DNA of 64,000 bases, taken from positions 2,640,001-2,704,000 of the forward strand of contig NZ_CP127389.1 of assembly GCF_030271835.1 (NCBI RefSeq), written 5' to 3'. This DNA is from Proteus appendicitidis (GTDB lineage Bacteria; Pseudomonadota; Gammaproteobacteria; Enterobacterales; Enterobacteriaceae). The first letter of the stretch is position 1, and each line of letters begins with the position of its first letter. The position numbers and the translations under genes are program-made. Under the pieces are notes generated by a model. The model had not been told where the DNA came from and made no database searches. It worked only from the letters and a program-made list of their open reading frames with translations. Below, piece by piece: positions 22,875 through 26,944 of this stretch.

Positions 22875-22951
22875 GTTCTTTGATGTACTGCCAGTGTAAT
22901 GCTGGCAGTACTGTTTTACATAACGAGCAACCGATATTTAAAGAGGTTTCC

Positions 22952-25096
22952 GTGTCCCGTACAATTATGTTAGTCCCAACTGATACACGCGTAGGTTTAA
23001 CCAGCGTCAGCTTGGGTGTTATCCGTTCTATGGAACAAAAAGGCGTTAGCCTTAGCGTGTTCAAACCAATTGCACAACCTCGTGTAAAAGGTGCTTTAGA
23101 CCAGACAACTGCGATTATCCGCTCTCACTCCACTATTCAATCATCAGAACCTTTAAACATGGATTATGTTGAGTCTCTACTCAGCTCAAACCAAAAAGAT
23201 GTTTTGATGGAAGAAATTGTTGCTAGATACCATGAAAATACCGCTGATGCAGAAGTTATTCTCATCGAAGGTCTGGTACCTATGCGTAAGCACCCTTTTG
23301 CACAATCATTAAACTATGAAATTGCAAAAACATTAGGCGCTGAAATTGTTTTCGTTACTGCATTAGGTAACAACACTGTTGAACAGCTAAAAGAGCGTAT
23401 CGAATTTGCGCGTGCTGAATTCGGCGGTGTAAAAAACCAAAATATCACAGGCGTTATTGTTAACAAACTAAATGCGCCAGTTGATGATCAAGGCCGTACT
23501 CGCCCTGACTTATCTGAAATCTTTGATGATTCAAGTAAAGCGATTATCTCTAATGTCGATTTAAAAACCATCGAAAAAAATAGCCCACTGCCTTTACTGG
23601 GTTGTATTCCATGGAACTTCGATTTAATCGCTACTCGTGCAACAGATATGGCAAAACACTTAAATGCGACTATCGTCAATAAAGGCGATATTGAAACCCG
23701 TCGTATTAAATCTGTCACTTTCTGCGCCCGTAGTATTCCACACATGTTAGAGCATTTCCGTCCTGGTTCACTTTTAGTGACATCAGCGGATCGCCCTGAT
23801 GTATTAGTTTCAGCATGCCTTGCAGCAATGAATGGTGTTGAAATTGGTGCGATCTTACTGACAGGTGGTTACCAAATCGATGCACCAATCAAACAACTTT
23901 GTGAACGTGCATTCGAAACTGGCTTACCAATCTTTATGGTTAATGCGAACACTTGGCAGACTTCTTTAAATCTGCAAAGCTTTAGCTTAGAAGTTCCTGC
24001 TGATGACCATGAACGTATTGAAAAAATTCAGAACTATGTTGCTCAACATATCAATACACAATGGATTGATTCACTGACAGCTAACTCTGAACGCCCTAAC
24101 CGTTTATCACCACCAGCATTCCGTTATCAATTAACAGAATTAGCGCGTAAAGCGAAAAAACGTATCGTTTTACCAGAAGGTGATGAGCCACGTACTGTTA
24201 AAGCAGCAGCAATTTGTGCTGAACGTGGTATCGCAACTTGCGTGCTGTTAGGTGACCCAGAAGAAATTCGTCGCGTAGCAACTGCTCAAGGTGTTGAATT
24301 AGGTACAGGTATTGAGTTAGTCAATCCTAAAGAAGTCCGTGAAATCTATGTGCCTCGCCTAGTTGAACTGCGTAAAAACAAAGGTATGACAGAGGTTGTT
24401 GCTCGCGAACAGTTAGAAGATAACGTTGTTCTCGGCACATTAATGCTGGAAAAAAGCGAAGTAGATGGCCTAGTTTCTGGTGCTGTTCATACAACCGCAA
24501 ACACTATTCGCCCACCACTACAGTTAATCAAAACTGCTCCAGGTAGCTCATTAGTGTCTTCTGTGTTCTTTATGCTGTTACCTGAGCAAGTTTATGTTTA
24601 TGGTGACTGTGCAATTAACCCAGATCCAACAGCAGAACAACTGGCTGAAATCGCAATTCAATCTGCAGATTCTGCAATTGCATTCGGTATCGACCCTCGC
24701 GTTGCGATGATCTCTTACTCTACGGGTAACTCTGGTGCAGGTAGTGACGTAGAAAAAGTCCGTGAAGCGACTCGTTTAGCACAAGAAAAACGCCCTGATC
24801 TGATGATTGATGGTCCTTTACAATACGACGCGGCTGTTATGGCTGACGTTGCTAAATCTAAAGCACCAAATTCACCAGTTGCAGGTAAAGCGACTGTGTT
24901 TATCTTCCCTGATCTGAACACAGGTAACACCACTTATAAAGCGGTACAACGTTCAGCTGACTTGGTTTCAATCGGACCAATGTTACAAGGTATGCGTAAA
25001 CCAGTAAATGACCTTTCTCGTGGTGCATTAGTGGACGATATCGTCTACACCGTTGCGTTGACTGCAATCCAAGCAAGCCAACAAGAAAACGCATAA
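22952..25096 (+). CDS. pta: Phosphate acetyltransferase
   Basis: A 714-residue enzyme that exchanges acetyl-CoA and phosphate for acetyl phosphate and CoA, partner of AckA. The N-terminal third is a P-loop-like regulatory domain ([19 protein letters not shown]), followed by a DRTGG domain ([20 protein letters not shown]) and the catalytic PTA_PTB domain from about residue 385 ([40 protein letters not shown]). I start at GTG 22952, preceded by AAGAGG with a five-base gap; this gives exactly the E. coli length (714). A frame open to 22880 includes unrelated codons. Confidence 0.97.
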
Positions 25097-25177: not shown

Positions 25178-25249
25178 ACTAAAATTCGAGGCAGTCTCAA
25201 AGCAGACAACTTGATTCTGTCTCCTTTATAAAGGAGTGTCAAGAGACAT
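25178..25249 (+). repeat. Toxin-less copy of the Hok-locus leader (copy 1)
   Basis: These 72 bases match 25435-25506 at all but four positions (two substitutions in AAAGCAGACAA against AAACCACACAA, one near the start, one just before the start-codon position). The copy includes the CTCCTTTATAAAGGAG palindrome that covers the ribosome-binding site, but at the place where the toxin start codon should be it reads ATT, and the following bases encode no Hok-like protein. It lacks the upstream antisense-RNA body present in copy 2. It looks like a remnant of a tandem toxin locus. Confidence 0.85.
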
Positions 25250-25357
25250 TCCGCATATAAACACCAGATACAAAAACAATTAACATATTGATTTTACTTG
25301 TTTATTTATATTATTTTTATGCGAAAAAAGATAGGAATGAGGTGAATTTCTGTTAGT

Positions 25358-25471
25358 ATGCAGGTGGGTGCTTGGATCATTTTGGTTCAAGCATTTGCGA
25401 GCGCCAAAAAGACGAAAGCCCCGAATTTTACTTTACTAAAATCCGAGGCAGTCTCAAACCACACAACTTGA
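25358..25471 (+). CDS. Possible 37-residue leader peptide of the Hok-like mRNA
   Basis: An ATG at 25358 opens a 37-codon frame (MQVGAWIILVQAFASAKK...) that ends at TGA 25469-25471, in the same frame as the downstream toxin and 11 codons before it. In the R1 hok/sok system an upstream frame, mok, overlaps hok and its translation is needed for hok translation; here the frame stops before the toxin instead of overlapping. No good ribosome-binding site is seen close to the ATG, so translation is uncertain. The frame runs through the region complementary to the proposed antisense RNA. Confidence 0.3.
   Translation: MQVGAWIILVQAFASAKKTKAPNFTLLKSEAVSNHTT
25423..25457 (-). promoter_or_regulatory. 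Candidate promoter of a Sok-like antisense RNA
   Basis: On the minus strand TTGAGA (25457-25452) and TAAAGT (25435-25430) are 16 bases apart and would start a transcript near 25423 running through CGGGGCTTTCGTC towards 25340. The minus strand reads TGCCTCG, then an AAAATT-rich stretch and CGGGGCT, an arrangement like that around the Sok promoter of plasmid R1 (from memory). No transcript has been shown. Confidence 0.45.
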
Positions 25472-25506
25472 TTCTGTCTCCTTTATAAAGGAGTGTCAAG
25501 AGAAAT
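25435..25506 (+). repeat. Hok-locus leader (copy 2, intact)
   Basis: Second copy of the 72-base unit described at 25178-25249, here directly joined to the toxin start codon. It holds the candidate -35 of the antisense promoter and the palindrome CTCCTTTATAAAGGAG (25479-25494), which can fold the AAGGAG ribosome-binding site into a hairpin. Confidence 0.85.
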
Positions 25507-25648
25507 GGCTAAATTTGCCCTGATGGGGCTGATTGCTGTCTGTATGACAGCACTGTGTTTATCATTACTTAAACATGAAAGATTATGCTCTTTCAATATT
25601 CGTAGTGGTCATACAGTAGTTCAAGCGACTTTATCTTGCGATAAATAG
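25505..25648 (+). CDS. Hok/Gef-family type I toxin
   Basis: A 47-residue membrane peptide too short for routine ORF listing. One hydrophobic segment spans residues about 4-22 (FALMGLIAVCMTALCLSLL), followed by KHERLCSFNIRSGHTVVQAT and a C-terminal SCDK. The Hok/Gef hallmark LC....R.G...V.A is present with both conserved cysteines (Cys28 and Cys45). Such peptides insert in the inner membrane and depolarise it. The ribosome-binding site AAGGAG lies inside a palindrome, and the mRNA 5' segment GGGTGCTTGG (25366-25375) is perfectly complementary to CCAAGCACCC (25707-25716) after the gene, the fold-back arrangement of hok mRNAs. The gene lies between pta and the racemase gene. Confidence 0.85.
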   Translation: MAKFALMGLIAVCMTALCLSLLKHERLCSFNIRSGHTVVQATLSCDK

Positions 25649-25651
25649 CTT

Positions 25652-25673
25652 TGTGGGGGAACTCTCCCCCACA
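25652..25673 (+). terminator. Stable stem-loop after the Hok-like gene
   Basis: A perfect nine-base stem TGTGGGGGA/TCCCCCACA with an ACTC loop, only three bases after the toxin stop. It is not followed by a T run, so it may be an mRNA-stability or 3'-end processing element within the toxin transcript more than a terminator. Confidence 0.6.
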
Positions 25674-25720
25674 ATTTCTCAAACAGGTTGTTGTGTTTTG
25701 TGGTTACCAAGCACCCTACT

Positions 25721-26944
25721 TTAATCCACTAATATCCGTTGATTGGTTGCACCCCATAAAATCGACATTTCTGTAAACAGTGCACCACTAATATCTTCAA
25801 CTTCTTCTGCCGTAATTTCGCTATTGCCTTGCTTACCAAAGAATACGACTTCATCCCCTGATTTGATATTTTTAAGATCTGTAATATCAACAATCACCGT
25901 ATTCATTGACGTTTTACCTAAAACAGGCACACGTTGACCACCGATTAAGGCATGTCCAGCATTACTAAAAACTCGACGATAGCCATCTGCATAACCAACA
26001 GGAATATTAGCTAATACCGAGTCACGTTTTAGTGTGTAAGTTCGATCATAACCAACAGTATTACCTTTAGGATAATAATTAATTGAAGCAATGGTCGATT
26101 TAAACGTCATAACACGTTTGTAATCTGTACTTGCGATGGTATCGCCATAGAAAATTCCGCCTACACGCACCATATCTAACCATGATCCAGGCACGGTAAT
26201 TGTGGCAAACGTATTTGCCATATGCAGAGTAATGTCTTTACGATTTAACCCTGTAACATCCAATACTTTTTGTGATTGCTGTTTAAAACGAGCAAGATCT
26301 TCTTTTACTTTATCAGCATCTTCTTCAGGATAATGAGACATAATGCCAACCACTTTAAGGTTAGTTAATTGAGCAATTTGCTTCGCCTCTTCAAGCCCTA
26401 CTGCGTTACTAACTTCTAATCCATTACGAGACATTCCACCTGAATTTAAGGCAAGATGAATAGGGATCACTTTATTTTGTTGTTTAGCAATGGCATCTAA
26501 TTTTTTAGCCATATCTAAGTTACCAATCAATTCTTCCACGTTATAGCTTGTTGCCTGAGCCATTTCTTGCTCGGTGGCATTACGTACACGCATTAAACGG
26601 CCTTGGAATCCTAGATCACGAACTTCTTTTAGCTCTTGGTTATTCGTTACACCAATACATTGCACATTATTTTCAATCATAATAGGTGCAACTAATGATA
26701 AATCATGACCATACGCATCACCTTTTAAAATGGCGCAAAGAGAGGATTTATCACCTAAAAGTGATTGTACTTTCTTCACATTAAAGTCAAGCGCACTACG
26801 TGAAATTTCAATCCATGAGTTATTCACAATGGCAGGTTGAACCTGAGCTGTTTGAACCGCAGATGGATTGTGATTAACCGGTTGTTGGCAAGCAGTGATA
26901 ACAAAAAGTGGTAACAACGCAAGATATCGAATACCAAAAGACAT
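25721..26944 (-). CDS. Secreted broad-specificity amino acid racemase (alanine racemase family)
   Basis: A 407-residue fold-type III PLP racemase with an export signal. Residues 1-19 are hydrophobic and end in the lipobox-like VITAC, so the protein is probably a periplasmic lipoprotein or a cleaved periplasmic enzyme. The PLP lysine is in [12 protein letters not shown] near residue 74 and the opposing catalytic tyrosine in [11 protein letters not shown] near residue 300. The divergence from cytosolic Alr and the signal peptide place it with the periplasmic broad-specificity racemases (Bsr/ArgR type) of Vibrio, Pseudomonas and Proteus that make non-canonical D-amino acids such as D-Lys and D-Arg. 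The start has AAGGAAAAAAGAAG in front. Substrate range cannot be read from sequence. Confidence 0.85.

Follow-up and report, generated by a model that had tools for sequence, protein, structure and literature searches.

The window analysed here is a 64,000-nt stretch of the Proteus appendicitidis genome, which is a single contig of 4.1 Mb. A 47-aa ORF, nested in a listed longer ORF from 25493, is flanked by pta (22880-25096) and by a minus-strand gene of the alanine racemase family (25721-26944); the original prediction had put a Hok/Gef peptide at this site, and the ORF list and profile matches agree with the placement. A profile search of the peptide gave a match to Pfam HOK_GEF above the cut-off (26.5 bits against 22), and NCBIfam HokA (25.4 bits, cut-off 89) and Hok (20.6 bits, cut-off 73) both stayed below threshold. 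The only Rfam match in the window at the gathering threshold was sok (RF01794; 25366-25515, 77.9 bits against a cut-off of 59), a model whose consensus starts at the tac element and extends roughly as far as the start of hok. Judged from its sequence, the locus is a chromosomal hok/sok type I toxin-antitoxin unit of Proteus. By eye, the start of the racemase-family protein resembles a lipoprotein signal sequence, so this enzyme may be exported. The plus-strand features of the unit are as follows.

25366-25375, plus strand: tac-like 5' end of the hok mRNA, GGGTGCTTGG (sequence, predicted fold)
25445-25480, plus strand: Sok-target hairpin GAGGC..GTCTC in the hok mRNA (predicted fold of -11.2 kcal/mol; counterpart hairpin in the Rfam model)
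25457-25464, plus strand: hypervariable recognition segment AACCACAC, predicted apical loop 25458-25467 (divergence counts, predicted hairpin)
25468-25488, plus strand: short mok-like ORF from TTG, a weak candidate, ending 16 nt before the hok start and without a Shine-Dalgarno sequence
25478-25493, plus strand: palindrome CTCCTTTATAAAGGAG masking the hok Shine-Dalgarno sequence AAGGAG at 25488-25493 (sequence, predicted fold)
25505-25648, plus strand: hok, encoding the 47-aa toxin (HOK_GEF match)
25651-25674, plus strand: G+C-rich hairpin 3' of hok, folding in the mRNA prediction and also scored as a minus-strand terminator-like site
25683-25705, plus strand: 3'UTR stretch predicted to pair with 25457-25477 (recognition segment and downstream bases) in the full-length mRNA
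25707-25716, plus strand: fbi-like element CCAAGCACCC, partner of 25366-25375 (sequence, predicted fold, fold-back survey)

The names tac and fbi are those that we take to apply to the two terminal elements. Across the genus, pta and/or alr flanked the unit in at least 16 of 20 Proteus genomes, with one match in G016 left unchecked. Of 21 pta-alr units extracted, 20 had an intact toxin ORF, and the ORF was under purifying constraint (pN/pS 0.26, 20 units), which answers the question of its functionality, raised in the original prediction, with 'probably maintained'.

Folding of 25364-25720 yielded a predicted structure of -130.2 kcal/mol (z = -8.34; equalled by 0 of 100 shuffles), in which 25366-25375 pairs with 25707-25716. 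This fold-back had been proposed beforehand, and both its coordinates and its perfect complementarity were correct. A palindrome hiding AAGGAG had been proposed as well, at 25479-25494; it exists, displaced by one base to 25478-25493. An 8-bp core of the ten-base complementarity, with G-U pairs permitted, was kept in most related units, namely 17 of 20 at pta-alr and 41 of 44 in a second array (58 of 64), against expectations of 2.97 and 6.51, respectively, for shuffled 3' regions; as the 5' element served as the anchor for unit extraction, only the 3' side of these counts tests the fold-back independently. In the full-length fold, 25455-25462 had a pairing of 0.79, and the bases from 25457 on were paired to the 3'UTR. 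Cutting the 3' end at 25690 or 25676 lowered this predicted pairing to 0.21 and 0.15, respectively, and the 5' end made a hairpin of its own (25366-25379 with 25383-25396), while the hok Shine-Dalgarno sequence was still paired (0.94 and 0.95). The predicted behaviour is like that of the R1 hok mRNA in the available portion of its description (PMC4147584).

A search of 65 units found no canonical mok. In 50 of the 65, the ORF from the mok-like TTG, without a Shine-Dalgarno sequence, ended between 16 nt upstream and 8 nt downstream of the toxin start; in 13 it ran through into the toxin. The TTG mini-ORF of the window (25468-25488) might serve as mok; a mok-free standby-site mechanism is also possible.

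Opposite the hok leader, pattern searches delineated a putative antisense RNA.

25405-25464, minus strand: predicted Sok antisense RNA of ~60 nt, both ends deduced from promoter and terminator patterns
25471-25499, minus strand: Sok promoter-like TTGACA-17-CAGAAT (10/12 match, exact TTGACA)
25418-25449, minus strand: Sok terminator-like hairpin of 13 pairs (pattern search)

The terminator-like hairpin at 25449-25418 follows the promoter-like sequence at 25499-25471, and the two together imply a Sok 5' tail covering about 25464-25450. Terminator-like sites in the region were above chance (5 against 0.4 expected), and promoter-like sites not clearly so (3 against 2.2). The promoter pair suggested earlier, at 25457-25430 on the minus strand, is present with a 9/12 match, but it is the weaker of the two and falls inside the predicted Sok, and 25499-25471 is more likely the antisense promoter. 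The Hok toxin, the fold-back mRNA and the antisense RNA of the original prediction have support at the sequence level, and its promoter placement is probably wrong.

Upstream of the live unit, the window contains a second, partial copy.

25180-25257, strand unassigned: orphan sok fragment without tac and toxin, probable remnant of a lost hok/sok unit (identity; counterparts in related pta-alr loci)
25214-25242, minus strand: orphan Sok promoter-like TTGACA-17-CAGAAT (pattern search)
25200-25207, minus strand: orphan Sok recognition segment (AAGCAGAC on the plus strand), shared with the live P. alimentorum unit L040_c2

The fragment is 95.7% identical to 25435-25503 over 69 nt. Alignment of nine short pta-alr intergenic regions revealed the orphan in eight, shortened in two (L041, L051); in the ninth (L046, genome G017), a deletion between the two sok segments fused them, so that promoter and leader are gone while the hok ORF is still open. 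Five of 14 toxin-less sok segments had the loop of a live unit elsewhere: AAGCAGAC of the window matched L040_c2, the orphan of L042 matched L048_c1 and that of L045 matched L047_c1, and two further cases were read by eye because the script pattern missed or cut them (the L048 orphan, identical to L042_c1, and the toxin-less L038 copy, identical to L049_c1). Among the remaining nine, the loop was lost in three (L040, L041, L051) and degenerate in one (L044), and five (the first of L038, and L043, L047, L049 and L050) carried segments not seen in live pta-alr units. For the orphan Sok of the window, predicted pairing was complete with L040_c2 (-26.4 kcal/mol) and poor with the hok of the window itself (-13.3, against -26.2 kcal/mol). 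We infer that the fragment is an antitoxin left behind when a unit lost its toxin. The orphan fragment, the tandem arrays and the variable recognition loop were all absent from the original prediction.

In Proteus, hok/sok-type units are arranged in tandem at two chromosomal places. A leader search gave matches in all 20 Proteus genomes, including that of the window. At pta-alr, where the window has one live unit and the orphan fragment, other loci carried two (L040), three (L039) or four (L038) toxin-bearing units. The second array of the window genome comprises four near-identical 515-bp tandem units at 3.031-3.033 Mb. Leader matches of this second kind, assigned by identity and place, occurred in 19 of 20 genomes, with two or more in 13, copy numbers that draft assemblies may misjudge; the genome lacking them is the draft assembly of ATCC 29906 (G007), in ~50 contigs, where the leader matched once. 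That the second array occupies one place was taken from coordinates in complete genomes, with flanking genes read in L037 only. Absence of the arrays from P. mirabilis was considered and rejected, as two complete records labelled P. mirabilis have both. The complete Proteus records H110 and H63 each contain three units at both places; the loops are distinct among units and identical between the strains. In the third and last unit of their second arrays (L158, L159), the leader and part of sok are kept and the toxin is replaced by other sequence.

Second-array units encode a peptide of 36-37 aa (32 units, pN/pS 0.49) or 50 aa (13 units, one of them with 64 aa; pN/pS 0.18), and the toxin ORF was intact in 45 of 46 extracted units; the non-intact units of both sets were the L038 copy that lacks a toxin and one unit located at the end of a contig. 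One 36-aa and one 50-aa example searched against HOK_GEF gave no match, profile comparison was weak (24.3% and 9.2% probability, respectively), and a protein search with the 50-aa peptide returned three relatives, hypothetical or unnamed. The leaders match Rfam sok with 81.6-98.2 bits in L037, L108 and L111, and these units may work like hok, though not filed as Hok. Because the 36-37-aa ORF is kept in 32 units, a reading of the shorter peptide as a frame-shifted hok was abandoned. The extracted sets exclude a G015 unit and the G016 C34 match, both at or near the pta-alr place, and L046 (which has no leader), L124, L126 and L127 contributed no anchored or used unit; the toxin-less copy L038_c4 was left out of loop comparisons.

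Copies within an array are near-identical save for one short segment that stands out, the variable loop of 8-12 nt. In plasmid R1, according to the part of PMC4485353 available, the Sok 5' tail pairs with the mRNA hairpin loop, and recognition is thus expected at the variable segment. Of 34 within-array tree pairs, 25 were close (<8% divergence outside the loop), and 22 of these remained after exclusion of the discovery array L037. In these 22, the loop differed at 62 of 207 sites against 270 of 8939 elsewhere, a contrast reached by 0 of 100000 random placements. Per site, the loop is ~10 times as divergent as the rest; by absolute number most differences lie elsewhere, and of the 20 close Proteus pairs with a loop difference, only nine had more differences in the segment than in every non-overlapping window. 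The divergence rate was 0.268 for the segment, compared with 0.044 for synonymous sites, 0.0097 for nonsynonymous sites, 0.038 for spacer and 0.052 for the 3'UTR.

The composition and predicted structure of the segment are also distinctive. A and C make up 86% of its letters (276 of 320, 36 distinct segments), compared with 50% in the units. Folding of 44 distinct hairpins left the segment more unpaired than its flanks in all 44 (means 0.91 and 0.15), mostly as the apical loop, with part of it drawn into predicted pairs in L043_c1, L114_c1 and L117_c2. Within their genome, 60 of 65 units had a distinct segment, and five co-resident unit pairs share one. Predicted pairing of the Sok tail with non-cognate co-resident targets was weaker in all 266 ordered pairs with unlike segments, pooled over both loci, by at least 4.2 and on average 14.9 kcal/mol. 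At the array loci, co-resident and non-co-resident loops showed no clear difference at matched divergence; loops there also differ between species, so co-residence is not isolated by this comparison. The pta-alr units (n = 20) revealed no covariation between loop and 3'UTR, own pairing being no better than swapped. A second-array signal of this kind (own pairing better, 1 of 5000 permutations) was not relied on, since the pattern admitted only 30 of 45 units, with two toxin subtypes mixed.

An Rfam sok survey of 119 genomes of the family matched 40, with closely spaced matches in nine other genera. From these, 12 stretches in nine genera were picked by eye, leaving out at least one further pair (~1.15 kb apart, G126); three of the 12 lacked a hairpin under the first pattern, and all were redone with a looser one. 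In the 12 close pairs, from seven genera, the loop differed at 21 of 103 sites against 165 of 4343 elsewhere (3 of 100000 placements), and in all 16 pairs from nine genera at 32 of 138 against 420 of 5796 (20 of 100000 placements), an excess weaker than in the Proteus arrays.

The control was a hok locus of Proteus present in single copy at 0.69 Mb, which in G000 adjoins a gene that we take from its sequence to be carB; 11 of 13 control units were extracted (L053 and L054 are missing). In its seven close pairs the loop differed at 2 of 63 sites against 46 of 2878 elsewhere, a result matched or exceeded by 23267 of 100000 placements, and the close single-copy pairs differed from the arrays (Fisher 1.3e-6). 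With outside divergence limited to 3.5% or less, the loop differed at 36 of 135 sites in arrays and 1 of 54 in single-copy pairs (Fisher 2.6e-5; per-pair test 0.0019), array and control pairs being few and not fully independent. All ten single-copy tree pairs, distant ones included, gave 15 of 90 against 186 of 4118 (63 of 100000 placements), an excess that makes the contrast between array and single-copy loci one of degree.

A plasmid collection held 141 records with a relative, 134 of them below 80% identity to the window unit; two are chromosome-sized. These two PLSDB 'plasmids' of Proteus mirabilis (L128, NZ_OL790812.1, and L129, NZ_OL790811.1; 4.08 Mb) look like chromosomes, with no listed features around hok. 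Twelve fetched plasmid records (L130, L145-L155), mostly of conjugative plasmids, from Proteus, Providencia, Morganella, Moellerella and E. coli, carried hok/sok units of 69-77% identity, all annotated Hok/Gef. Loops were readable in ten, the pattern missing L145 and L155, and comprised four types with small differences in the same loop. A phage collection contained no match.

These observations are consistent with a hok/sok unit in a locus that would grow and shrink by tandem duplication. The full-length hok mRNA would close its 5' to its 3' end, masking the hok Shine-Dalgarno sequence and the Sok target; 3' trimming would expose the target loop; and Sok, presumably transcribed from the promoter at 25499-25471, would bind this loop by its 5' tail and silence the message. 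This classical RNA switch is well supported as a prediction. Divergence of the loop would be selected in that it prevents the Sok of one unit from silencing its neighbours. The explanation as a whole, a tandem-duplicating hok/sok locus whose loops diverged under selection against cross-silencing, is one that we consider probable. Selection on tandem copies to differ in the recognition loop appears the best account of the divergence because the loop evolves faster than synonymous and spacer sites, is largely restricted to A and C, shows the same pattern in other genera and is quieter at the single-copy locus. The data do not separate neighbours, incoming relatives or both as the selector.

Loops could also have been diversified by a contest with incoming relatives, such as plasmid hok/sok or DNA of other species, instead of array neighbours, the orphan Soks then being anti-addiction antitoxins. 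The 141 plasmid-collection records with a relative, the four loop types in ten readable plasmid records and the five of 14 toxin-less segments whose loop matches a live unit of a different species all fit this reading, but the identity below 80% of 134 records makes cross-silencing doubtful, and the single-copy locus would be equally exposed, yet is quieter in close pairs; we regard such a contest as the principal selector as rather doubtful. That the loop drifts neutrally under relaxed constraint, its differences not being selected, is unlikely. With Sok and its target on opposite strands of one sequence, a change in the loop alters both partners and is matched automatically, loops vary between species as they do within arrays, and distant single-copy pairs are also in excess; against this stand a within-array rate ~6 times the synonymous and spacer rates, a composition strongly limited to A and C, and the lack of a loop excess in close single-copy pairs.

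If the Sok transcription start or the hairpin loop were a mutational hotspot, this would explain why changes in the arrays of several genera are confined to a single site and why distant single-copy pairs show some excess, but close single-copy pairs, with the equivalent hairpin and start site, change little there. Transversions moreover made up 33 of 59 loop changes, compared with 108 of 268 changes outside (Fisher p = 0.03), a bias that the A/C composition may explain in part, and a hotspot is in our judgement very unlikely. Hardly credible is a decaying plasmid relic without function: the orphan fragment, the deleted leader of L046 and the existence of plasmid relatives would suit it, but toxins are intact in 20 of 21 pta-alr units with a pN/pS of 0.26, the fold-back is kept in 17 of 20, and the unit occupies an equivalent site in at least 16 of 20 genomes.

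A tentative extension of selection against cross-silencing, which we hold possible but would not expect, is that tandem hok/sok arrays are self-addicting, a private loop punishing deletion of its own unit via post-segregational killing. Unequal crossing-over could then not simply collapse an array, and selection would part the loops right after duplication. Survivable loss of a unit would keep Sok, leaving orphan antitoxins such as 25180-25257.

If neighbours have selected against cross-silencing, the copies act as separate addictive units and the loop is a readable record of that selection. The arrays constitute natural sets of close RNA pairs that diverge most in the recognition loop, and such pairs suit measurement of how many mismatches are needed to make two antisense systems independent.

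Compared with known systems, Ibs/Sib of E. coli is reportedly, going by the title of a 2010 paper by Han et al., a family of related units with target discrimination. Unlike the predicted Proteus Sok, Sib covers the ibs coding region, according to the available part of PMC3919570. The same source describes zorO-orzO and zorP-orzP of E. coli O157:H7 as tandem type I units told apart by few variable single-stranded antitoxin bases, a 3-nt variable region setting specificity between them (PMC3919570). They resemble the Proteus arrays in this respect and differ, as far as the source text available goes, in their toxin, divergently encoded antitoxin, 18-19 nt pairing and two copies; the predicted Sok lies opposite the hok leader, not divergent and outside the toxin gene as in Zor-Orz. 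The Ldr/Rdl repeats of E. coli are likewise tandem type I units with a ~60-nt antisense RNA over the leader, in the portion of PMC4147584 available, and belong to another toxin family.

A literature search, which covered few subscription papers and is therefore weak evidence of novelty, found no account of tandem hok arrays with diversified loops among the titles and abstract openings listed. With hok/sok of plasmid R1 and its chromosomal relatives, the window unit has in common the toxin profile, the Rfam leader model, the predicted 5'-3' fold-back, the Sok promoter-like and terminator-like patterns opposite the leader, and a target hairpin loop expected to meet the Sok 5' tail (available parts of PMC4147584 and PMC4485353). 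What sets the Proteus units apart from R1 is their tandem arrangement, in which the loops have diversified, and the lack of a canonical mok in the units searched. The role of chromosomal hok/sok copies is described as open in the accessible text of PMC4147584. In R1 hok mRNA, a YUNR motif is reported as decisive, in the part of PMC6562991 available; this motif was present in 6 of 37 distinct Proteus loops and absent from that of the window, and the YUNR U-turn is not counted as family-defining for Hok/Gef.

RF01794 is named 'sok antitoxin', yet its matches lie on the hok-sense strand (25366-25515, plus strand, in the window, and in L037, L039, L040, L108, L111 and L156), so that strands annotated 'sok' from it are hok-leader strands.
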